Shown: piece by piece, positions 4,262-22,615 of the stretch
How positions within the stretch are numbered: the first letter of the stretch is position 1
Layout of the letters: each line of letters starts with the position of its first letter
Assembly (NCBI GenBank): GCA_934597585.1
Contig: CAKTSA010000026.1
Location: forward strand, 1-22,615
Reading direction: 5' to 3'
DNA: 22,615 nucleotides
DNA from: an uncultured Oscillospiraceae bacterium
GTDB taxonomy: Bacteria > Bacillota > Clostridia > Oscillospirales > Oscillospiraceae
Notes under the pieces: model-generated
The model's database searches: none
Seen by the model: the letters and a program-made list of their open reading frames with translations, nothing else
What the model was told of the DNA's origin: nothing
Program-made: the position numbers and the translations under genes

Positions 4262-7200
4262 TTAATTGTTCGCTGCCATCTTCTTATACTTGGCGTAACG
4301 TGCCTTCACATCGGCAATTTCTTTGGCATAGAGCGCATCCGCCTTCTCCGGGAAGTTGTTCTTCAGTGCGGCGAAGCGGTTTTCACCCATCAGGAAGTCC
4401 ATCAGTTTGCTGGTATCGGGTTCGGGGGAATCCAACTGGAAGGGATTTTTGCCCTCCTCGATCCGGCGGGGATCGTAGCGATACAGATGCCAATAACCAC
4501 ATTCCACAGCCTTTTTCATCTCTTCCTGAGAACTACCCATACCAGCCTTGATATGCTGCTCCAGGCAGGGACAGTAGCAGATTACAATGGAAGGGCCGGG
4601 ATAGGCTTCGGCTTCTCGTAAAGCTTTCAGCGTCTGTGCCTGATCGGCGCCCATAGCTACCTGGGCTACATACACATAACCATATTGCATCAGAATGCCG
4701 CCCAGGTCCTTTTTGGCCACCTGTTTACCGCCGGCAGAGAACTTTGCTGTGGCACTGGTGGGGGTGGCCTTGGAGGACTGACCGCCGGTGTTGGAGTACA
4801 CCTCGGTGTCCAGTACCATCAGGTTCACATCACGGTTCTGCGCCATGACATGGTCGATACCTCCGAAGCCGATGTCATACGCCCAGCCGTCGCCGCCCAC
4901 AGCCCAGACGGACTTCTTGGTCAGATATTCTCTGTTTTCAAGGATGTATTTCACGTCCTCCGTCTGCTCGGCCTTTTTCAGAGTGGCCAGCAGCTCGTCT
5001 GTGACGGCACGGGAGGTCTCGTGCTTATTCCACCCGTTCTGGTATGCCTCCACAGCCTCCGCAGCAATACCCGCGGACTTGATGGCGTCCAGACGGATCA
5101 GCAGTTCCTTGCGGATGGCGTCCTGCGCGTGGAAGAAGCCGTAGGCAAACTCGGCGTTGTCCTCGAACAGGGAATGCTCCCATGCGGGGCCGTGGCCGTG
5201 GCAATCCTTACAGTAGGGCAGGATGGGCGCACCGCCGCTGATGGCGGAGGAGCAGCCTGCGGCGTTGCCCACATACATGTGGTCGCCGAACAGCTGGCTC
5301 AGGAGCTTGATATATGTCGTCTCGGCACAGCCTGCACAGGCGGCGGAGAACTGAAAGTAGGGCTTGGCGAACTGCACGTTCTTCACGCTCTTATCGCTGA
5401 TGACATCCTTCTTCAAATAGGTCTCGTTCATGGCCACCTGGTCAAACAGCGGCTGCTCGGCTTTCATCTCCTCGAAGGGAGCCATGGTTAGTGCGTCCTT
5501 GGCGGGACAGGCCGTCAGGCAGACGCCGCAGCCCAGGCAATCGTAGGGCGATACCTGCATCCGGAAGTGATACGCCGGAGCGTCCTTGCCCAGACCCTTG
5601 GCCGGTGCGGTGACAAACCCGGCGGGAACCTGCGCTTTCTCCTCTTCGGTCAGCAGCACAGGGCGGATGGCCGCGTGGGGACAGCTCATGGTGCAGCGGT
5701 TGCACTGGATGCAGGCCGTCTCATCCCATTTTGGAACGGAGGTGGCCACGCCGCGCTTGGAGTAAGCGGAGGTACCGTTCTCCCATGTGCCGTCCAGCAC
5801 GCCGTGCTTCTGGAACACGGACACAGGCAGCTTGTCTCCCTGCTGGCGATCCATGGGCATGACGATTTCTTTGACGAAGGGCGTGGCGTTGATCTCGGCA
5901 ATGGAAGCGTCCTGCGCGTCGGCCCACGCGGCGGGAATATCCACCTTCACCGCGGCGGTAATGCCGACGTCTACGGCCTTGTCGTTCAGATCGACGATCT
6001 TCTGTCCGGCCTTCTTAAAGTAGGTGGCGTAGTTGTTCTTCTTCATATCCGCCACGGCAACGTCCATGGGAATGACCTTGGTCAGGGCAAAGAACGCGCC
6101 CTGAAGGATATTATTGGTATGCTTGCCAAGGCCAACGTCGGCAGCCAGCTTGGCGGCGTCGATGATATAGAACTGCGCGTGCTTGCGGGCCAGATCCCGC
6201 TTCATCTTGGAGGGCAGACGTTCCTCCAGCTCCGCTACCTTCCAGGGGCAGTTCAGCAGGAAGGTACCGCCGTTCTTCAGATCCTCGGTCAGATCATATT
6301 TCTTGACATAGGTAGGCGCGTGGCAGGCTACGAAATCGGCAGAGGACACCAGATAGGTGCTGCGGATAGGCGTGTCGCCGAAGCGCAGGTGGCTCTGGGT
6401 CAGGCCGCCGGACTTCATAGAGTCGTAGGAGAAGTAGGCCTGCGCGTATTTATCGGCCACAAGGCCAATGGTGGAGATAGCGTTCTTGTTGGCGCCCACG
6501 GTGCCGTCGCCGCCCAGGCCCCAGATCTTGCAGGAGATCTCACCGGGATGATGGAACTCCACATTTTCATAGTCCAGAGAGGTATGGGTCACGTCGTCGT
6601 TGATGCCGATGGTAAAGCTGTTCTTGGGAGTCTCCTGCCGCAGGTTGTCGTACACGGCAATCAACTGGCCGGGGGTGGTATCCTTGCTGGACAGGCCGTA
6701 ACGGCCGCCTACCACGCGGATATCGCCGCGACCTGCCTGATTCAGCGCCGTTACCACGTCCAGATACACAGGCTCGCCCACGGAGCCAGTCTCCTTGCTG
6801 CGATCCAGCACGGCAACCTTCTTGACTGTGGCGGGAATAGCGGCAGAGAAGTCAGGCACGGAGAAGGGACGGTACAGATGGATCTGCACCATGCCCACCT
6901 TGCGGCCCTGCGCGTTGAGGTAGTCCACGGTCTCCTTCACAGCCTCGGAGGCGGAACACATGACAACGACCACTTCTTCGGCGTCTGGTGCGCCGTAGTA
7001 GTTAAACAGCTTGTAGTCGCGGCCCGTCAATTTGTTGATCTCGTCCATGTAGTGCTGCACCGTTCCGGGCACGATGGCGGACTTAACGTTGGCACCCTCC
7101 TTGCACTGGAAGTACACGTCGGGGTTGACGTTGTTGCCGCGGTTGGTGGGGTGCTCTGGGTTCAGGGACTGGCGGCGGAAATCCCGCAGCGCGTCCTGAT

Positions 7201-7789
7201 CCAGCAGGGGCCGCAGCTCTTCATAGTCCAGCGCTTCGATACGCTGCATCTCGTGAGAGGTGCGGAAGCCGTCGAAGCAGTGCATAAAGGCGTACTTCGC
7301 CTTGATAGCGGACAGGTGCGCCACCGCCGCCAGATCCATGGCCTCCTGAGGGGAGGAGGACATCAGCATGGCGTAGCCGGTGGTACGGCAGGTCATAAAG
7401 TCCGTATGATCGCCGAAAATGGAGTGGTGGTTAGAGGTCACAACGCGGGAGGCGATGTGCATGACGCTGGGGAGGAACTGACCGCCCATGGCATACATGG
7501 CGGGGATCATCAGCATCAGACCCTGAGAGGATGTGAACGTGGTGGTCAAAGCGCCCGCCTGCAAAGAGCCGTGACAGGTGCCGGCAGCGCCGGCCTCCGA
7601 TTGCATCTGGATCACATCCACTGTGGAGCCGAACAGATTCTTCCGTCCCTTGGCGGACCACTCGTCCACTTTCTCCGCCATGGGGGAGGACGGCGTGATG
7701 GGATAGATGGCCGCTACCTCTGTAAAGGCATAGGCAACATGGGCCGCCGCCGTGTTGCCGTCCATGACAACATAATTCTTTTTACTCAT
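4262..7789 (-). CDS. nifJ: Pyruvate:ferredoxin (flavodoxin) oxidoreductase, single-chain
   Basis: A 1175-aa single-chain PFOR oxidising pyruvate with CoA to acetyl-CoA and CO2 while reducing ferredoxin. The N-terminal TPP half has YPITPSSPMAE and the Glu of QMQSEAGAAG (E65). A two-cluster ferredoxin domain carries C693/C696/C699/C703 and C751/C754/C757/C761. The C-terminal TPP domain has CAGCAET (C818, C821), AAGCSS (C846), GGDGWAYDIGFGG (about 965-977) and NTGGQSSKAT, with a late Cys at about 1071 as in the family. Odd: PYCKDCHGHGPAW (about 859-870) adds C860, C863, H864 and H866 where I remember PFORs without Cys. The start MSKKNYVV is preferred because AGAGAGG lies just upstream; a longer reading would need an ATT codon. 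It begins 14 nt after the aldolase stop. A paralogue lies at 15368. Confidence 0.95.
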   Translation of the reverse strand: MSKKNYVVMDGNTAAAHVAYAFTEVAAIYPITPSSPMAEKVDEWSAKGRKNLFGSTVDVIQMQSEAGAAGTCHGSLQAGALTTTFTSSQGLMLMIPAMYAMGGQFLPSVMHIASRVVTSNHHSIFGDHTDFMTCRTTGYAMLMSSSPQEAMDLAAVAHLSAIKAKYAFMHCFDGFRTSHEMQRIEALDYEELRPLLDQDALRDFRRQSLNPEHPTNRGNNVNPDVYFQCKEGANVKSAIVPGTVQHYMDEINKLTGRDYKLFNYYGAPDAEEVVVVMCSASEAVKETVDYLNAQGRKVGMVQIHLYRPFSVPDFSAAIPATVKKVAVLDRSKETGSVGEPVYLDVVTALNQAGRGDIRVVGGRYGLSSKDTTPGQLIAVYDNLRQETPKNSFTIGINDDVTHTSLDYENVEFHHPGEISCKIWGLGGDGTVGANKNAISTIGLVADKYAQAYFSYDSMKSGGLTQSHLRFGDTPIRSTYLVSSADFVACHAPTYVKKYDLTEDLKNGGTFLLNCPWKVAELEERLPSKMKRDLARKHAQFYIIDAAKLAADVGLGKHTNNILQGAFFALTKVIPMDVAVADMKKNNYATYFKKAGQKIVDLNDKAVDVGITAAVKVDIPAAWADAQDASIAEINATPFVKEIVMPMDRQQGDKLPVSVFQKHGVLDGTWENGTSAYSKRGVATSVPKWDETACIQCNRCTMSCPHAAIRPVLLTEEEKAQVPAGFVTAPAKGLGKDAPAYHFRMQVSPYDCLGCGVCLTACPAKDALTMAPFEEMKAEQPLFDQVAMNETYLKKDVISDKSVKNVQFAKPYFQFSAACAGCAETTYIKLLSQLFGDHMYVGNAAGCSSAISGGAPILPYCKDCHGHGPAWEHSLFEDNAEFAYGFFHAQDAIRKELLIRLDAIKSAGIAAEAVEAYQNGWNKHETSRAVTDELLATLKKAEQTEDVKYILENREYLTKKSVWAVGGDGWAYDIGFGGIDHVMAQNRDVNLMVLDTEVYSNTGGQSSKATPTSATAKFSAGGKQVAKKDLGGILMQYGYVYVAQVAMGADQAQTLKALREAEAYPGPSIVICYCPCLEQHIKAGMGSSQEEMKKAVECGYWHLYRYDPRRIEEGKNPFQLDSPEPDTSKLMDFLMGENRFAALKNNFPEKADALYAKEIADVKARYAKYKKMAANN

Positions 7790-7803
7790 ATTCCTCTCTA
7801 CTT

Positions 7804-8601
7804 TCAATGTTCGCCGTGGAAGGCGGCAATATCAGCTTTTGCCATATTCATAAAAATCGCCGTATCACAGGAATAACCGATGAACTTCACGCCCATCTCC
7901 AACAGCTTGCGGCCGGATTCGGCAGAGTCGGCGAAGCAGCCTACCTGCACGCCCTTCGCGGCAGCCTTTTGAACAATCTGCGCGATCCGATCCATAACCA
8001 GAGGATGGGTGATCTGCCCGATGATGCCCAGAGAGGCGGACAGATCGTAAGGCCCTACAAACACGATGTCCACGCCTTCGACACTGAGAATGTCATCCAG
8101 ATTGTCGATGGCCTTTTGACCCTCGGCCTGAAGGATCACCACGGTGTCCTGCGCCTTTGCGAAGTAGTCCGCGCCGGGAACGCCGCCATAGGCGGCGGAA
8201 CGGACAAAGCGGCAGGTGCCACGGGTGCCGCGGGGAGAGAATTTCGCGGCGGACACAGCGGCGCGCGCCTGATTGGCACTGTCAATCTGGGGGATCATAA
8301 CTGCACCGGCACCAACGTCCAGCGCCTGATCGATCCAGATATCCGTCCCACGGGGAACGCGAACCACAGGGCAGACGCCGGACACATTGGCGGCGCGGAT
8401 CAGATTCTGCAGATTTTCAAATGTGCCGGGGCCATGTTCCATATCCAGCAACACAAAATCATATCCGGCGTAACCGGCAGCCTCCACAAAGGCGGGGTCG
8501 GAGGTAATCATAAAGGGGCCGAAAGCACCCTGCTCCGATGCCATGGCAGCCTTGAAGTTCTTAACGCTTTCCAATGTCGGCATAGTAACGTTTCTTTCCA
8601 T
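7804..8601 (-). CDS. HpaI/HpcH-family class II aldolase (2-oxo-4-hydroxy acid type)
   Basis: A 265-aa TIM-barrel aldolase. Motifs in order: LLDMEHGPG (H56), VVRVPRGT (R81), PRGTRGTCRFVRSAAYG (about 123-139), ILQAEG (E160) and FVGPYDLSASLG (D186). These correspond to His45, Arg70, Glu149 and Asp175 of E. coli HpaI with a constant 11-residue offset, so the metal site and catalytic residues are intact. The family makes or cleaves 4-hydroxy-2-oxo acids, releasing pyruvate and an aldehyde. The start at 8601 has AGGAGG seven bases upstream. PFOR starts 14 nt after its stop, which fits pyruvate being the product passed on. A separate promoter lies upstream (8631-8659). The actual aldehyde half is unknown; a distant citrate-lyase-type activity is less likely. 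Confidence 0.88.
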   Translation of the reverse strand: MERNVTMPTLESVKNFKAAMASEQGAFGPFMITSDPAFVEAAGYAGYDFVLLDMEHGPGTFENLQNLIRAANVSGVCPVVRVPRGTDIWIDQALDVGAGAVMIPQIDSANQARAAVSAAKFSPRGTRGTCRFVRSAAYGGVPGADYFAKAQDTVVILQAEGQKAIDNLDDILSVEGVDIVFVGPYDLSASLGIIGQITHPLVMDRIAQIVQKAAAKGVQVGCFADSAESGRKLLEMGVKFIGYSCDTAIFMNMAKADIAAFHGEH

Positions 8602-8701: not shown

Positions 8702-9877
8702 TTACTTCATATCAGGATACGCCTTGCGGACATAGGCATCAATGCGGCGGACGGCTTCCTTGAGGTTCTCGTCGGAGTTGGCGAACACAAGGCGCAGATA
8801 TCCCTCGCCGCAGTCACCGAAGGCGGAGCCGGGCACGGTGACAACACCGGCGCCCACCAGCAGCTCCTCGGCGAACTCCTGGGCGGACTTGCCGAAGGCC
8901 TTGATGTTGGCGAAGGCGTAGAAGCTGCCGGCAGACTTCTTGCAGCTGAAGCCGGGAATGGCGTTGATGCCGTCGATGAGGATATCCCGGCGGCGGGTGT
9001 AGTCCGCCACCATCTGCTTGACGCACGCGTCGCTCTTCAGCGCCTCGGCGGCGGCCACCTGGGAGAAGCTGGACACGCAGGAGGCGATGGCCTCGTTCAT
9101 CTGTGCCATCTTCTTGACGCAGGCAGGGTCGGGAGCGATGACATAGCCCACACGCCAGCCGGTCATGGCATAGGACTTGGAGAAGCTATTCAGCACGAAC
9201 ACACGGTCACGGACCTCCGGCACCTGAGCGATGCTGAAGGGCTCCGCGCCATCGTAGACGATGCTGTCATAGGGCTCGTCGGACAGCACCCACAGGTCGT
9301 GCTTCTTCACCACTTCGGCGATGGCCAGGATGTCCTCCTTGGTCAGCACCGCGCCAGTGGGGTTGCAGGGGGAGTTCAGCAGCAGCGCCTTGGTGTGGGG
9401 CGTGACGCACTTCTCGATATCGGCGGCCAGCATGCGGTAGTCGTTGTCCTCATAGGTGGGCACCGGCTTGGCGCACGCGCCGGTCAGGGATGCCTGGCCG
9501 TAGTAGTTGGGGAAGCAGGGATCGGGCACCAAGATCTCGTCGCCGGGATCCAGCAACAGCATCATGGTCAGCATCAGGCCCTCCATGGCGCCCACGGTGA
9601 CCATCACATGGTCGGCGGTATAGCCGTCCCAGTGGCTCTTCTGATACTTCTCCGCCACCGCCTGACGCAGCACGGTCATGCCGGCGTTGGGGGTATAGTG
9701 GGTCTCTCCGGCATCCATGGCCTTCTTTGCGGCCTCCTTGATATAGGTGGGGGTATCAAAGTTGGGCTCACCCACCGTCAGTTTGATGGCGTCGGGATAC
9801 TGGGCCGCCAGATCGAACATCTTGCGGATACCAGAGGGCGGGTAATTCCGCGCCGCCTTGGAAAATTCTCTGCTCAT
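8702..9877 (-). CDS. PLP-dependent aminotransferase, class I/II
   Basis: A 391-aa fold-type I aminotransferase of usual length. It has LTVGEPNFDTP (about 33-43), YTPNAGM, NSPCNPTGAVL with N172, SDEPYDSIVYDG with D200 and Y203, and the PLP-binding lysine K234 in NSFSKSYAMTGWRVGY. C-terminal GEGYLRLVFANS carries the likely carboxylate-binding Arg. These are features of the aspartate/alanine/aromatic aminotransferase I-gamma group; the amino acid cannot be read from sequence. Its ATG overlaps the stop of the racemase-family gene by four bases (ATGA), indicating translational coupling and suggesting both act on the same amino acid. It would deliver a 2-oxo acid, which fits the aldolase and PFOR that follow. 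Confidence 0.9.
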   Translation of the reverse strand: MSREFSKAARNYPPSGIRKMFDLAAQYPDAIKLTVGEPNFDTPTYIKEAAKKAMDAGETHYTPNAGMTVLRQAVAEKYQKSHWDGYTADHVMVTVGAMEGLMLTMMLLLDPGDEILVPDPCFPNYYGQASLTGACAKPVPTYEDNDYRMLAADIEKCVTPHTKALLLNSPCNPTGAVLTKEDILAIAEVVKKHDLWVLSDEPYDSIVYDGAEPFSIAQVPEVRDRVFVLNSFSKSYAMTGWRVGYVIAPDPACVKKMAQMNEAIASCVSSFSQVAAAEALKSDACVKQMVADYTRRRDILIDGINAIPGFSCKKSAGSFYAFANIKAFGKSAQEFAEELLVGAGVVTVPGSAFGDCGEGYLRLVFANSDENLKEAVRRIDAYVRKAYPDMK

Positions 9878-14990: not shown

Positions 14991-15260
14991 TTTTTTGTAT
15001 CATTCCCGAAGCGACGGAGCGCCCTGCAGACATCACCACACTGAGATTATGCCACACTTTTTCCCTTTTTGGTTATCAGCAACCATGAAGGTGCGGTTCA
15101 CGATTTTTGATATCTCTACCGGCGCGGCGGGTCGGCACGGCGATGTGCACAAGCGAACACTTTCTGCATTGTGAAAAACACACAAAAAGCGGATACTCTC
15201 AGGAAAAACAGAGAAAATTCCTGTCGCCGGAAACGGTGGTATAAGAAAACGTGAAGCGGC

Positions 15261-15306
15261 AATTCGGATATCGTGATTGGCCTATGGCAGAAAAGTCCGC
15301 TATAAT
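15261..15306 (+). promoter_or_regulatory. Promoter of the second PFOR with an overlapping dyad
   Basis: TATAAT (15301-15306) is a perfect -10. TTGGCC (15277-15282) with an 18-bp spacer is a weak -35. Immediately upstream, 15261-15278 reads as a dyad of the form AAT-N3-GATATC-N3-ATT overlapping the -35, a typical place for a LysR-type activator. The weak -35 with activator-like dyad suggests regulated transcription. The leader is about 55 nt. Confidence 0.55.
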
Positions 15307-15367
15307 CGGGGCAAAGACCAAGGGCGCGCTGCGCTGCATGGGATTACGTAATGAAGGAGAGTACATT

Positions 15368-18877
<3,510 letters not shown>

Positions 18878-19213: not shown

Positions 19214-19296
19214 AATACGCACATAATACGCATTATCTTCGTAATACGCCTGTAATACGCATTTAATACGCATTTAATACGGAGATAATGCGTATT
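19214..19296 (+). repeat. Iteron-like cluster of AATACGC(A) repeats
   Basis: Six direct copies of an octamer start at 19214, 19225, 19243, 19254, 19265 and 19276 (AATACGCA four times, AATACGCC once, AATACGGA once). The step is 11 bp except one of 18. An inverted copy TGCGTATT lies at 19289-19296. One copy per helical turn is the signature of cooperative protein binding: replication iterons, integrase/excisionase arm sites or an activator array. They end about 45 bp before the -35 of the promoter at 19343, and about 1 kb before the recombinase genes. Confidence 0.85.
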
Positions 19297-19342
19297 ACTT
19301 TTTGCCTACGCTCTCCCAAGCACATATTTAGGCATTTTCATA

Positions 19343-19371
19343 TTGACAGCTACAATATATTGAGGTATATA
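19343..19371 (+). promoter_or_regulatory. Consensus promoter upstream of a structured non-coding region
   Basis: TTGACA (19343-19348), exact 17-bp spacer, TATATA (19366-19371). Transcription should start near 19378. It is the best promoter match in the window by eye, yet no protein gene follows for more than 900 bp, which points to an RNA product. Confidence 0.7.
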
Positions 19372-19377
19372 AGAACT

Positions 19378-19543
19378 ATCCAGTTATTTGTGCACCGCCC
19401 CAATGGGGTTTCCGAATACCTTTCGGATCGCACACGTTGTTAAGCTTGTACTTGAGGAGCACCATGCTCCCGCTTGAGATCAGGGCCATTGTGCCCTTAT
19501 ATTTCAATGACTATGCTGCGAGAAGTTTTCTCGCGGCATTTTC
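19378..19543 (+). ncRNA. Candidate structured non-coding RNA of about 165 nt
   Basis: Starting at the predicted transcription start, complementary segments appear in order. A three-way junction is closed by TGTGC/GCACA (19389-19393 with 19430-19434) and contains CCCC-AAT-GGGG (19398-19408) and TCCGAA/TTCGGA (19411-19416 with 19422-19427). A hairpin GGAGC-ACCAT-GCTCC follows (19456-19470). Next is AGGGC/GCCCT (19482-19486 with 19493-19497). Last is a 12-bp stem ATGCTGCGAGAA/TTCTCGCGGCAT (19513-19524 with 19528-19539) with one G.U, followed by U bases, which reads as an intrinsic terminator. Promoter, dense stems and terminator together suggest a discrete small RNA. It does not match the conserved cores I know for SRP RNA, tmRNA, RNase P, T-box or hammerhead. 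The structures come from inspection, not folding software. Confidence 0.5.
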
Positions 19544-19729
19544 CACCTGTACATTTCTCTGTCACCGTACTACACTGAACGTGTACTTAAGGCATCAAGC
19601 ATTTAGGTCGGAGCAGAGCAGGCACGGGTGGAAGGCTATCAACAGCTTTTCACTCTGACTAAGAACTCGAAGTATGTCAAAATGCGCCTCCCGAAAAACG
19701 GGGCGGCCATCAGAATTGAACAATACTGC

Positions 19730-19786
19730 AAACGCAGGAAGGATCGTAAGAAGCCGAAACGGCAGGAAGATTCTTCCTGCGTTTTT
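19730..19786 (+). terminator. Terminator with alternative pairing (attenuator-like)
   Basis: AAACGCAGGAAG (19730-19741) pairs perfectly over 12 bp with CTTCCTGCGTTT (19773-19784), followed by U residues. A second CAGGAAG (19763-19769) just before the right arm can form a competing 7-bp, 3-nt-loop hairpin with the same right arm (19773-19779). An inner GCCG-AAA-CGGC hairpin also fits. Two mutually exclusive stems sharing the 3' arm are the layout of an attenuator. It lies between the RNA candidate and the recombinase genes. Confidence 0.65.
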
Positions 19787-20303
19787 GCTTACCGTTTTTG
19801 TCGCGGCACTTGCCAACGTCGCGATACCGCAGAAAAAGAAAGAGCGCCGGAATCAATTCGGCGCAGATCAGAAAAAAGAAGCTTTGTAAAAAGCCGTTGG
19901 GACGATACGGCAGGAAAATCGTCAAGGGAGAGGCAAGCTCCCGCCCCTGTATGCCGCAGTCAGAGTGCGGCGCCGGTCATACGGGGTTATCGCGCATCCC
20001 TCGATCCGTCGCCGGGCGGATCACAGGACACCGGCGGAGCCTTCCGCAGCCGAGTTCAGCGGCCTGGTGTCCGCCACCGCTCTATCGGAGCAGGGCATAT
20101 TTGCCCCATGTGGCAGCGTACTGACCTGGCACAAGTAAAGAGAGACAGACACACAGGCAAGCCGCGAAAAACACGCAGCACCAAGGCTTTCCGCCTGCGG
20201 CAGTCTATCCTTTCTGCGAAGATACGCCGGAAATGGCTCTCCTTGCCAACGGGTGAAGTGCGCCCATCTGAACACAACTTTGATTTTAAGGAGATTTCTC
20301 TAT
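19787..20303 (+). other. Gene-poor region upstream of the first recombinase
   Basis: Long open frames exist here but are rich in Arg, Pro and Ser, and I believe none of them. The region carries further inverted repeats: GGGAG/CTCCC (19926-19930 with 19938-19942), GCCGCA/TGCGGC (19953-19958 with 19966-19971) and GGACACC/GGTGTCC (20026-20032 with 20066-20072). It may be a long leader, an element end or transfer origin, or decayed sequence. AAGGAG at 20288-20293 serves the next gene. Confidence 0.5.
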
Positions 20304-21218
20304 ATGGCCACAAAAGGTATTTACCACACCCTCGTTACCCAGTTGGACAAGCTGGCGCGGCACAACCGGCAGGGCAGCTTTCGCACGAAGGGCCGCTACT
20401 ATGAGGCGGTCAAGCGGTTCTGCGCCTACCTTGCTGTTCATTACCATCTGCAAAAGCTGGAGAACATCAGCGGCAAGCATCTGGTGAGCTACGTTCTCTA
20501 TTTGCAGGAGCAGGGCAAGTCGGCCAGCACCATCAAGACCGACCTCTCCGCCATCCGCTTCTTCCACGACAAGATGTCCCACCCCCGCTACACGCTGCCG
20601 GGCAACGAAGAACTGGGCGTTGCCTTGGAACGCCGCCGCTTCGGGCAGCAGGATCGCACATGGACGAACTCGGAGTTCGGCAAACTGATCGGCCGCGCCA
20701 TGGCGGAGGAGCGGGAGGACTACATCCTCGCCCTGTATCTGGCCCGCTACGCCGGTCTGCGCATCCATGAGTGCTTCCGCATGGACACCGCTGCGGCGGA
20801 GCGCGCACTGCGTGAAAACGCCCTCACCGTGAAAGGCAAGGGCGGCAAGGTGCGTATCGTTCCCATCGAGGACGACCGCATCACGATGATGCTGCAAAGG
20901 CTGCTGGAGAAAACGGAACGCGGTCACAAGCTGCTGGTGCCAGATGACGTTCCCACCGACCGGGCCATCAACGGTATGCAGCAATTCATCATCCGCCACC
21001 GTGATGCCATCTGCGACCCTACAGCGCCGGACAGGCGCATTACTTTCCATGGACTGCGGCATACTTACGCCGCCGAAAAGTACACATCTCTCGTCAACGG
21101 CGGCATGACGCCTTTGGACGCCCACTTCACCGTGTCCCGTCTGCTGGGACATGAGCGGCCCGATGTGACGGACATCTATCTGGCGTCCGTGAAGGGAGGC
21201 ACTGCCCGTGGAGAATAA
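20304..21218 (+). CDS. Tyrosine recombinase / integrase
   Basis: A complete 304-aa tyrosine recombinase. An N-terminal SAM-like core-binding domain occupies about 8-100 (YYEAVKRFCAYLAVHY; SASTIKTDLSAIRFFH). The catalytic domain has R153 (YAGLRIHE), K179 in VKGKGGKVRIVP, H249 and R252 (FHGLRHTYAAEKY), H283 (LLGHERPDVT) and the nucleophile Y292 (DIYLASV). All six catalytic residues are present, so it should be active. There is no arm-binding domain, making it XerC/D-sized. AAGGAG precedes the ATG by 10 bases. It overlaps the excisionase-like gene by 11 bp, so the two are probably translated together. It likely serves an integrative element that continues beyond the right edge. Confidence 0.92.
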   Translation: MATKGIYHTLVTQLDKLARHNRQGSFRTKGRYYEAVKRFCAYLAVHYHLQKLENISGKHLVSYVLYLQEQGKSASTIKTDLSAIRFFHDKMSHPRYTLPGNEELGVALERRRFGQQDRTWTNSEFGKLIGRAMAEEREDYILALYLARYAGLRIHECFRMDTAAAERALRENALTVKGKGGKVRIVPIEDDRITMMLQRLLEKTERGHKLLVPDDVPTDRAINGMQQFIIRHRDAICDPTAPDRRITFHGLRHTYAAEKYTSLVNGGMTPLDAHFTVSRLLGHERPDVTDIYLASVKGGTARGE

Positions 21219-21405
21219 GTACCGCGACCTGCATGAGTTGCCCGTGACACTGCGGGTGGAGGACTTGATGCCTATCCTCGGCATCGGCCGCAACACCGCC
21301 TACGAACTGATCCGCAGCGGCCAGATACGAAGCGTCCGCATCGGTAGGCAGATCCGCATCCCACGGGAGGCACTGCTGGAGTTTTTGGAGGGGAGGAAGT
21401 TTTAA
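21208..21405 (+). CDS. Excisionase-like helix-turn-helix DNA-binding protein
   Basis: A 65-aa protein beginning at GTG (21208), with GGGAGG ten bases upstream inside the end of the recombinase gene. LRVEDLMPILGIGRNTAYELIRSG is a MerR/excisionase-type helix-turn-helix, and IRSVRIGRQIRIPREALLEFLEG is its wing. This pattern is seen in Tn916-type Xis proteins and in small HTH_17-domain proteins. It probably directs excision or controls the neighbouring integrases. The 11-bp overlap with the upstream recombinase suggests coupled translation. Confidence 0.85.
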   Translation: MENKYRDLHELPVTLRVEDLMPILGIGRNTAYELIRSGQIRSVRIGRQIRIPREALLEFLEGRKF

Positions 21406-21513
21406 ATGACAATGCCGCAAAGAAAAAATTTGCAGGATGACCTCCTGCTGTCGTATAATAATTTTAAGATCTTCCCTGCGCGGCAAAAGGAGGGAATCAT
21501 TCATGCCGCGTAA
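21406..21513 (+). CDS. 35-aa ORF between excisionase-like gene and second integrase
   Basis: The ATG directly abuts the stop of the excisionase-like gene, and GGGGAGGAAG lies at ribosome-site distance. The product starts MTMPQRKNLQDDLLLSYNNF and ends 11 bases inside the next integrase gene. No family is recognised. It may be a leader peptide or translational coupler; equally, it may be chance, since the same bases hold a promoter and a small hairpin (GCAGGA/TCCTGC). Confidence 0.35.
   Translation: MTMPQRKNLQDDLLLSYNNFKIFPARQKEGIIHAA
21430..21459 (+). promoter_or_regulatory. Promoter of the second integrase
   Basis: TTGCAG (21430-21435), 18-bp spacer, TATAAT (21454-21459). The spacer contains the arms of a small hairpin (GCAGGA/TCCTGC), which may be a repressor or Xis site. 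The start would be near 21466, about 37 nt before the ATG. Confidence 0.5.
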
Positions 21514-22615
21514 ACCAAGCAAACCTAAAACCACACGCCGCGGAAAGAACGAAGGCAGCGTCTATCGCCGCAAGGACGGTAAATGGGTCGGTCAGGTGAC
21601 CGTGGGCTATCACCCCGATACCGGCAAGCCCATCCGCAAATACACCTACGCCAACACCCGTGAAGAGGCCGCGCACTGGATCGCCCTGACGCTGGTTTCT
21701 GAAACATCCAAGGCCGCCCCTTCACTGGCATCCGAATTGCTGCTGAAGGACTTTCTGCACCGCTGGCTAACCACGTTCAAGACCTATGAGGTTTGCAGCC
21801 GCACCATGGAGCTGTATTATTCCTGCGAACGGTTACATATCGTTCCTGCATTGGGGGATATCCCCGTGGCGGCGCTGACAGCCTCCCGCATTCAGACGTT
21901 TCTCTATTATCTGCAAGCGGAAAAGCAGCTCTCCCGCCGCACCATTTCACTGGTACGCAGTGTCCTGATCCAGCTGTACGACTACGCCGTAGAAATGTCT
22001 CTGGCCCCGATCAATCCTGCCCGCAGCACAAAGCTGCCCCGGCAGCCGCAGCGCCCGGAATCGGAGGAGAAAGTTATCCCCATCGCTCAACGAGAAGCGG
22101 TGCTGGCCGCGGCGCAGAAAGACCCCATCATGCGCCCCATTATCACCACGTTGCTATTCACCGGCATGCGCATCGGTGAGCTGCTGGCACTCCAATGGAA
22201 GCATATCGACTTTGCGGCCCACACCATCACCATTGCGCAATCCGTGACGCGGGAGCTGACCTTCGACGAAAATGGAAAAACGGTAGAAATGACCGATGCG
22301 CTGGGCTCCACTAAGACCCGCACCTCCCATCGCGTCATTCAGGCACCGGAGCTGGTGCTGACACGGCTGCGGGAATGGATGCGCTACGTGGCGACTCTGC
22401 CAAAAGGGCTGGAGGTGCTGACACCGGAGGGCTTCGTTTTCATCAGCACACGCACCATGTCCATGCGAACATACAGTGGCTTCCGCGCCAGCTATCGTCA
22501 CTTCCTGGATCGCAACGGCTTTTCCGGCGAGGGCTTGAATCTCCATCGGTATCGCCATACCTATGCCTCCATGCTTTTGGAGCAGGAGATCAACCCCAAG
22601 ATCGTCCAGAAGCTG
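21503..22615 (+). CDS. int: Tyrosine integrase with arm-binding domain, C-terminus cut by window edge
   Basis: The frame is open for 371 codons from ATG 21503 to the last base of the window. AAAAGGAGGG precedes the start. The N-terminus (about 12-60: GKNEGSVYRRKDGKWVGQVT, then a KYTY strand) is the AP2-like arm-binding domain of Tn916- and phage-type integrases. A SAM-like core-binding domain spans about 80-190, then the catalytic domain with R223 (FTGMRIGELLAL), K271 (STKTRTSHRVI), H348 and R351 (LHRYRHTYASM). The second histidine and the tyrosine nucleophile lie beyond the edge. It is a different subfamily from the recombinase at 20304. The arm-binding domain implies repeated arm sites near the element end. 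Confidence 0.93.
   Translation, partial: MPRKPSKPKTTRRGKNEGSVYRRKDGKWVGQVTVGYHPDTGKPIRKYTYANTREEAAHWIALTLVSETSKAAPSLASELLLKDFLHRWLTTFKTYEVCSRTMELYYSCERLHIVPALGDIPVAALTASRIQTFLYYLQAEKQLSRRTISLVRSVLIQLYDYAVEMSLAPINPARSTKLPRQPQRPESEEKVIPIAQREAVLAAAQKDPIMRPIITTLLFTGMRIGELLALQWKHIDFAAHTITIAQSVTRELTFDENGKTVEMTDALGSTKTRTSHRVIQAPELVLTRLREWMRYVATLPKGLEVLTPEGFVFISTRTMSMRTYSGFRASYRHFLDRNGFSGEGLNLHRYRHTYASMLLEQEINPKIVQKL

Follow-up and report, generated by a model that had tools for sequence, protein, structure and literature searches.

Gut Clostridia exchange many genes through conjugative elements, and the activation of the establishment genes of these elements is poorly known. In phage lambda, nut is a short boxA-boxB RNA, which is used together with the N protein. 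In phage HK022, one RNA (putL or putR) is present on each of the early transcripts and the nascent RNA enables the passage of terminators; putL lies just 3' of its promoter and putR about 270 nt downstream (PMC9378689). Within the Gram-positive conjugative element Tn916, canT was described as an RNA antiterminator acting in cis on several terminators, and its activity was assigned to 452- and 400-bp fragments of one region serving the conjugation genes (sections of PMC11658703). The conAn system of plasmid pLS20 comprises the ConAn1 protein and the conAn2 RNA, located where an operon rich in terminators begins (excerpts of PMC8955417). Finally, the EGeRS1 and EGeRS2 stretches are repeated before several establishment operons of pLS20-family plasmids, where EGeRS2 has a strong promoter with an operator and EGeRS1 (400-750 bp, structured, with no promoter detected) blocks read-through by a mechanism called unknown; on one pLS20-type plasmid the EGeRS1 copies mostly cluster (according to sections of PMC8708921).

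The window analyzed in this work, i.e., the whole stretch of 22,615 nucleotides from an uncultured Oscillospiraceae bacterium, contains at positions 19343-19543 a member of a conserved RNA family for which Rfam 15 gives no match. Its promoter and core recur in 76 further aligned copies, which was beyond the sequence-only reading of this DNA. We consider it fairly probable, from the sequence features presented below, that this leader RNA controls whether terminators are read through, with processive antitermination as the likeliest way; in mobile DNA, it would probably let the polymerase pass stop signals, so that genes of an element switch on together. The RNA represents a compact control point, with a core of about 100 nt placed before operons of the ssb, exonuclease/helicase, and recombinase kinds. 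Should antitermination be its role, it would be one more among the few RNA-type systems described in the accounts cited here (put, EAR, canT, and conAn2). Moreover, the covariance model could mark the heads of operons in poorly annotated elements.

The RNA may be likened to put, nut, conAn2, and canT, and membership was not found where it was tested. As in the case of put, there are two structured RNAs per element, one per operon, but put is described as about 70 nt with two stem-loops, whereas the present RNA has a closed junction with usually two or three hairpins, and the best match of our model R2, run unfiltered over the whole HK022 genome, had an E-value of 1.9. It also differs in that the cores are element-specific, suggesting a partner that put, by the description available, does without. 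The likeness to lambda nut concerns the two copies per element at two operons and a specificity matched within one phage; however, no N-like protein was identified here. By its partial description, canT differs from the present core, which is mostly 75-105 nt long, is repeated per element, and serves ssb, exonuclease, or recombinase modules. Similarly, in contrast to conAn, as far as described, the operons here open with ssb, yqaJ, or a recombinase gene. Model R2 applied unfiltered to pLS20 (NC_015148, all 65,774 bases in two pieces) gave best E-values of 4 and 0.048, and judging by its sequence this plasmid holds no convincing homologue of the RNA, conAn2 and EGeRS1 included. Compared with the described features of EGeRS, promoter, palindrome, RNA, and terminator are joined here within about 200 bp.

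The promoter of the window copy, on the + strand, consists of a -35 box TTGACA (19343-19348), a 17-nt spacer (19349-19365), and a -10 box TATATA (19366-19371), exactly where the sequence-only reading had placed them. In the family, the promoter is TTGACA-N17-TATAAT (exact TTGACA in 54/76 copies) and a palindrome lies between the boxes; its operator-like form in the window is ACAATATATTGA (19352-19363) and in the family ACAATATATTGT. At least four of the six palindromic positions were found in 59 of the 76 copies, versus about 3.5% of random 12-mers. It is probable, on this evidence, that the palindrome is an operator, and because the spacer carries it, the promoter would be repressed while the element is resident.

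The match to model R1 in the window spans 19343-19453 (57.4 bits), and the conserved RNA core extends from the predicted start at 19378 to 19453. The fold of 19378-19545 reaches -61.9 kcal/mol, versus -41.5 +/- 3.9 for 200 dinucleotide shuffles, none of which was as low (z = -5.2). It contains all the parts announced from the letters alone, i.e., a three-way junction, two short hairpins, and a 12-bp stem followed by a T tail. The junction (19389-19434) is closed by P1 (19389-19393 with 19430-19434) and holds the hairpins P2 (19397-19401/19405-19409) and P4 (19411-19416/19422-19427), with covariation in P1-P4; P3, present in most relatives, is missing and P0 is weak. It is followed by the conserved, mostly single-stranded strand CGTTGTTAAGCTTGTA (19435-19450), by two additional hairpins (19456-19470 and 19482-19497), and by the first terminator, T1 (19513-19542, 12-bp stem and TTTT). 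By eye, and as far as seen, the two additional hairpins recur only in the sister locus L133, in which the T1 stem is also kept with altered pairs. One ORF of at least 60 aa (19437-19658, TTG start) overlaps the RNA and has no Pfam match, and no reading frame conserved across the RNA was seen among the copies, in which the lengths of hairpins vary. The earlier statement that there is no protein gene holds for the RNA itself, but not for its surroundings, since the RNA is the leader of protein genes.

Rfam 15 gave no match over 19343-19543 at the gathering threshold or at E-values up to 5, nor across the RNA in seven relatives at E-values up to 1, in line with the initial impression that the RNA does not resemble the core of a familiar class. 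Likewise, EAR of the Bacillus eps operons, which is included in Rfam, was not matched at the RNA. In distant BLASTN searches, only one plasmid record with relatives was found (Vescimonas fastidiosa NZ_AP023417.1), in which the promoter, the junction ends, and the strand CGCACACGTTGTTAAGCTTGTA are kept and the hairpins differ. Its leader, used as a query, retrieved only itself and one chance match, and the search against phages gave a single hit at chance level close to the promoter (E 0.3). Searching viral contigs and genome contigs for exact DNA patterns from the core or P2 gave no matches, and no relatives of the window recombinase were confirmed in viral contigs. Further copies of the RNA were obtained from 33 loci carrying a recombinase of the window type, and the covariance model R1, built from six copies, was then run over genomes.

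Model R1 found the RNA in 37/400 genomes of the family of Flavonifractor An306, and model R2 in 18/394 genomes of its order and 2/398 of its phylum (one of the two being Flavonifractor An306 itself); strict filters were applied in these scans and the counts are lower bounds. The carriers are Oscillospiraceae and relatives, gut Clostridia. From the regions fetched around the genome matches, 77 copies were aligned. The cut copy L144 was left out of the promoter counts (76 of 77) and of the single-core folding, and one copy with short downstream sequence was left out of the terminator count (76 of 77); identical rows were counted once in the pair statistics (71 distinct), as were identical cores in the folding (67 distinct). 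No report of this RNA appeared in the titles and abstract starts from our literature searches, with supplements and most subscription papers outside their reach. A word search of the text of PMC8040213, which reports thousands of candidate RNAs, gave no matches, and the motif may stand unnamed in its supplements.

The family layout begins with the promoter. A junction follows, which UGUGC/GCACA closes and which holds two or three hairpins as a rule; next come a conserved single strand ending with GUUUGUA and, in most copies, a terminator. The consensus reads TTGACAAACACAATATATTGTGGTATAAT, then from about +1 GTAATTGATTTTTGTGCG - P2 - P3 - P4 - CATTGCACACGYTGTTAAGTTTGTAYG, where P1 (UGUGCG/UGCACA) closes the junction and P0 (UUGAU/GUUAG) lies outside it; the core has about 50-135 nt, mostly 75-105. 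The sequence-only reading had named covariation among homologues as a test of the RNA, and two-sided changes occur in 21 of the 27 base pairs (71 distinct rows), although the alignment used, A5, was fitted to model R1 and the pair counts therefore lean towards that model. The cells of paired columns form pairs in 94.1% of cases, versus 79.2% after shuffling and at most 57.4% after sliding, and the nine column pairs with the highest corrected mutual information are all predicted pairs of the model. De novo folds formed P1 in 62 of the 67 distinct cores, with three hairpins inside it in 43 cores, two in 14, one in four, and four in one; by itself the folding energy of the cores is modestly low (mean z -1.24, 67 cores). 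The window core is closest to the Vescimonas copies (identities of 0.79 and 0.74), which are also without P3. By eye, an extra hairpin-like insert was seen between ACACGTTGT and AAGG(T/G)TTGTA in L032 (about 441-470) and in the core of L026. With strong covariation, a conserved promoter, and no Rfam family, the proposal of a new structured RNA family, voiced from the sequence alone, gained support.

When P0 and one P1 pair are set aside, GU/UG cells (97) far outnumber AC/CA cells (15), and therefore the + strand transcript is what is selected. This bears on the possibility that the structure acts as single-stranded DNA after transfer, as a priming site or single-strand promoter. The genes behind the leader (ssb, exonuclease, helicase, methylase) do resemble establishment genes, and sections of PMC8708921 state that some plasmids express such genes from single-strand promoters. 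The tolerance of G-U points, however, to + strand RNA, and the promoter is an ordinary double-strand one. Furthermore, the copies face opposite ways, and one transferred strand would therefore be a template for just one of them. We regard this explanation as very improbable.

Profile searches of the downstream frames of 77 copies showed that 21 copies precede ssb, 24 go with yqaJ (as the near gene in 23, usually 300-376 nt downstream), and 18 lie ahead of a recombinase like that of the window; these classes leave 14/77 copies unclassified. A Pfam tally of the first downstream frames (127 proteins) agrees: YqaJ 19, Phage_integrase 18, RecD2 helicase 17, and SSB 15. When both strands were searched, the genes were located downstream on the strand of the RNA in 21/22 cases for SSB, 26/27 for YqaJ, 22/23 for RecD, and 18/20 for XerDC. 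The three SSB/YqaJ/RecD exceptions come from one locus, L096, with two facing copies, and the two XerDC exceptions (L128 and L075) are weak matches upstream. L096 (G190:C59 98255-100626) is a reduced arrangement, in which only about 2.4 kb hold an ssb copy and a yqaJ copy that point towards one another.

The sequence-only reading had also considered an antisense or copy-control RNA of a replicon, beside an iteron-like array. This array is indeed present: AATACG(CAT) repeats adjoin the RNA at 19214-19298, mostly with 11 bp spacing and with an inverted copy at the end. Yet in all three classified contexts the copies stand at operon heads and lie on the same strand as the operon, and ssb-type operons have their first gene close behind the terminator, with no promoter-like site in between (distances are given below). 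Moreover, no replication gene was noticed in the window, whose frames were scanned in part. An antisense or copy-control role is hence the least credible of the explanations considered, with a very low probability, and nothing observed supports the guide RNA that had been mentioned beside it. As to the array itself, its sequence makes integrase arm sites or an operator possible. By eye, AATACG-type arrays lie 5' of the RNA also in L012 (about 1289-1380), L032 (about 162-240), and L133 (about 8930-9000), and in integrase/recombinase-type loci such arrays could be integrase arm sites at the end of an element.

Among 16 same-contig pairs of copies, 12 face inward, four point in the same direction, and none faces outward. 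Ten inward pairs are spaced by 34-81 kb, and in eight of them ssb is present at one copy and the yqaJ exonuclease gene at the other; of the remaining two, one (G281) does not follow this rule and the other (G500) is unclassified. We infer from one annotated case that each pair represents two arms of one element. In NZ_AP023417.1, which holds just two copies, copy A heads ssb, DUF932, an ECF sigma factor, an N6 methylase, and ParM, and copy B heads yqaJ, recD, YodL, an AcrIIA9-family/PcfK-like protein, PcfJ, and ligA; the record also holds a conjugation module with a VirD4-like protein, and its type in the database is non-mobilizable. The excisionase and integrase genes and ychF probably mark one end of this element. 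It is also worth mentioning that the record is labelled as a plasmid yet carries prfB, purB, and the VirD4-like conjugation module, and therefore it may be a chromosome fragment or a chromid with an integrated element. The copies thus stand first in operons of integrative elements, and conjugation genes are present in at least one of these (NZ_AP023417.1); the proposed role as a regulatory RNA of the element is strengthened by this association, as well as by the covariation, the conserved promoter, and the lack of an Rfam family. Inverted terminal repeats or attachment sites were rejected as the cause of pairing, because the flanks of the two copies resemble each other no more than those of different elements (0.51-0.54).

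The two copies of an element were then compared part by part. For eight elements, core identity was 0.81 within an element versus 0.67 between elements in the same context. Without two near duplicates (the L086/L087 and L095/L094 pairs, left out of the dereplicated set), the values were 0.83 and 0.64, and the true matching ranked 2 of 720 permutations, not first because two elements share an identical ssb-side core. Promoters (0.71 within versus 0.75 in the same context; rank 267 of 720) and terminators (0.62 versus 0.69; rank 76 of 720) did not behave in this way, and the flanks, at the identities given above, showed no excess within the element. By these comparisons, only the transcribed core appears to be matched between the two copies. 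The simplest reading of matched cores suggests a shared element-encoded partner that recognizes both, although gene conversion limited to the core could also produce them. If the RNA antiterminates, they suggest a specificity code between elements.

A strict terminator within 215 nt 3' of the core was found on the sense strand in 57/76 copies and on the antisense strand in 1/76; the remaining 19, several of the recombinase type among them, have none by the strict rule. In the ssb type, the distance from the T tract to the ssb start codon is 39-49 nt in 21/21 loci (here and for gene 2 the start codon was chosen by script as the in-frame start with the best ribosome site), the interval mostly holds a small hairpin and AGAAAGGAG, and promoter-like sites between the T tract and ssb were found in 0/21. 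A second terminator, T2, is present after ssb in 20/21 loci (antisense control 6/21), 55-78 nt past the stop codon (in L083, L085, L078, L090, and other ssb-type loci), with a stem of 17-26 pairs and -24 to -39 kcal/mol. Gene 2 starts 31-45 nt after T2 in 18/20 loci, and no promoter-like site lies between T2 and gene 2 (0/20). In the yqaJ type, a second, long-loop terminator precedes yqaJ in 19/23 loci, a figure without antisense control. With serial terminators and no promoter-like sites between them, the operon genes appear to depend on the passage of two terminators.

Such an arrangement is difficult to reconcile with a separate small RNA that acts in trans; it would be about 165 nt long and would end at its own terminator while the operons are transcribed from elsewhere. 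The strong promoter, compact fold, and terminator are what such an RNA should have, and two or more copies per element, matched to one another, also agree with it. Against it stand the short distance to ssb with no promoter-like sites in between, the position of genes on the strand of the RNA in all three classes, and the copy at each operon head, which would be needless. We consider a trans-acting RNA improbable.

Core and adjacent terminator before the first gene are also the usual layout of a conventional attenuator, in which the core would sense a ligand or bind a protein (SSB or another product of the operon) and set the adjacent terminator. Some support comes from the terminator hairpin itself, in which letters such as CTGCGCCC recur (by eye). 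However, when the 50 copies that have a strict terminator 20-80 nt past the core were examined, the 5' arm of the terminator paired with the core at -6.59 kcal/mol, versus -6.51 for shuffled arms, the value being lower in 25 of the 50 loci; the energies of core and terminator are nearly additive. An antiterminator hairpin between core and terminator was consequently rejected, with no pairing beyond chance. This result disfavors an ordinary attenuator and favors an action on the polymerase. The second terminator in series, in both ssb and yqaJ operon types, also does not fit an attenuator, and ligand sensing leaves the core-only matching within an element unexplained. We hold the attenuator to be unlikely, with somewhat more in its favor than the trans-acting RNA.

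The preferred reading, processive antitermination, agrees with the position of a promoter-proximal structured RNA at the operon head and with more than one terminator following it without promoters in between. Transcription would start at the strong promoter with its palindromic operator, to which a repressor would bind in the resident element, and the first 50-135 nt or so of the transcript (mostly 75-105) would form the folded core. While still nascent, this core, or a complex assembled on it, would modify RNA polymerase, and the modified polymerase would pass the adjacent terminator and the next one, expressing the operon. Within one element the same leader would stand before the ssb arm and the exonuclease/helicase arm, and so both DNA-processing/establishment operons could fire together. 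An element-encoded partner may recognize both cores of the element, as suggested by their matching, and the window copy would serve its recombinase module in a like manner. The wider proposal is held tentatively and we would not rely on it as a whole: gut conjugative elements would have a new antitermination system based on RNA, in which at least two element-specific RNA "password" copies, one operator, and a putative element-encoded partner would co-activate the ssb and exonuclease arms (in some elements also recombinase modules) after transfer or excision, with a logic like that of lambda N/nut and an unrelated RNA. The family, its structure and strand, the promoter, the operon position, and the serial terminators were seen in the sequences compared.

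Several observations speak against antitermination. Leakiness of the terminators might be enough, with SSB made in large amounts and the other products sparsely. Long stems are said, in the title of one paper, to resist processive antitermination, and those of T2 have 17-26 pairs; T2 may be a differential stop or an antitermination target. Other points on this side are the copies without a strict terminator (19/76), the modestly low folding energy of the cores, and two loci selected by protein in which the RNA is missing (described below), as well as, in the window copy, the absence of P3, the weak P0, and a promoter-like site before T1. Downstream of the leaders there is no general enrichment of sense terminators (99 sense versus 179 antisense at 230-4000 nt in 72 loci), and in NZ_AP023417.1 the counts were 7 versus 8 for the ssb operon and 5 versus 1 for the exonuclease operon; conserved second terminators are confined to leader-proximal positions.

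Candidates for a protein partner were also sought. No specialised NusG was found: each of eight genomes has one NusG, and none lies between paired copies, which speaks against a NusG-type antiterminator. Antitermination of the LoaP/RfaH type was rejected, as no NusG paralogue is present in or beside the operon in these eight genomes. Proteins of known antiterminator type were not found among 20 (Pfam) and 10 (NCBIfam) proteins of the annotated element, and the operon proteins that were scanned include no known RNA-binding family.

The second gene of the ssb operon (e.g., L072:8968-9771) encodes a protein of about 270 aa without a Pfam or NCBIfam match, for which 200 relatives were reported at E-values up to 1e-5. 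It was searched independently of the RNA and found in 2/291 genomes of the class and 11/394 of the order, and the RNA lies upstream in 11 of the 13 loci. Two of these 11 loci (L154 and L155, with 41% and 29% protein identity) come from genomes new to the analysis, where the RNA was matched with E-values of 9.8e-11 and 2.7e-8 (filters off); the other nine are in already known carriers. In two distant loci, L167 and L168 (25-26% protein identity), the RNA is missing. A T-rich hairpin before ssb was seen by eye in L168 (clear) and L167 (less clear), which may be a different leader with the same role. The product of gene 2 was not adopted as the RNA partner, because a Lacrimispora relative was listed and two of the 13 loci lack the RNA.

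Beyond T1, the window contains, on the + strand, a second terminator-like hairpin (AAACGCAGGAAG...CTTCCTGCGTTTTTG) at 19730-19789 and a tyrosine recombinase gene at 20304-21218 (Phage_integrase and SAM-like domains), which is the first identified downstream gene. It is followed by a gene for a small, excisionase-like HTH_17 protein (21208-21405) and by a second integrase gene (21503-22615) that continues past the window end. The promoter scan found one + strand promoter-like site within the leader (19474-19503, 10 of 12, before T1) and no + strand site between T1 and the recombinase; its rule is strict and also misses the leader's own promoter, because it demands T at position 6 of the -10 box. 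Taken together, the interpretation given in the sequence-only reading was partly supported.

The recombinase gene is also preceded by the xerDC RNA (Rfam RF03062; 20003-20126, + strand, 138.2 bits, E 4.2e-23), a separate known cis-regulatory element, which begins 460 nt 3' of the leader RNA. Both RNAs occur with the same recombinase modules, xerDC a few hundred nt downstream, but the leader is a distinct RNA with its own model. The xerDC RNA scored above the gathering threshold in the window and L032 and below it in L134 and L142, and it was not found in five non-recombinase loci scanned. In L012, two differing copies of the leader RNA stand in tandem (1440-1576 and 1719-1852) before one xerDC-type module. 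Finally, two long pyruvate:ferredoxin oxidoreductase-like frames, recognized by eye, are present on opposite strands of the window, at 4262-7807 (-) and 15251-18877 (+).
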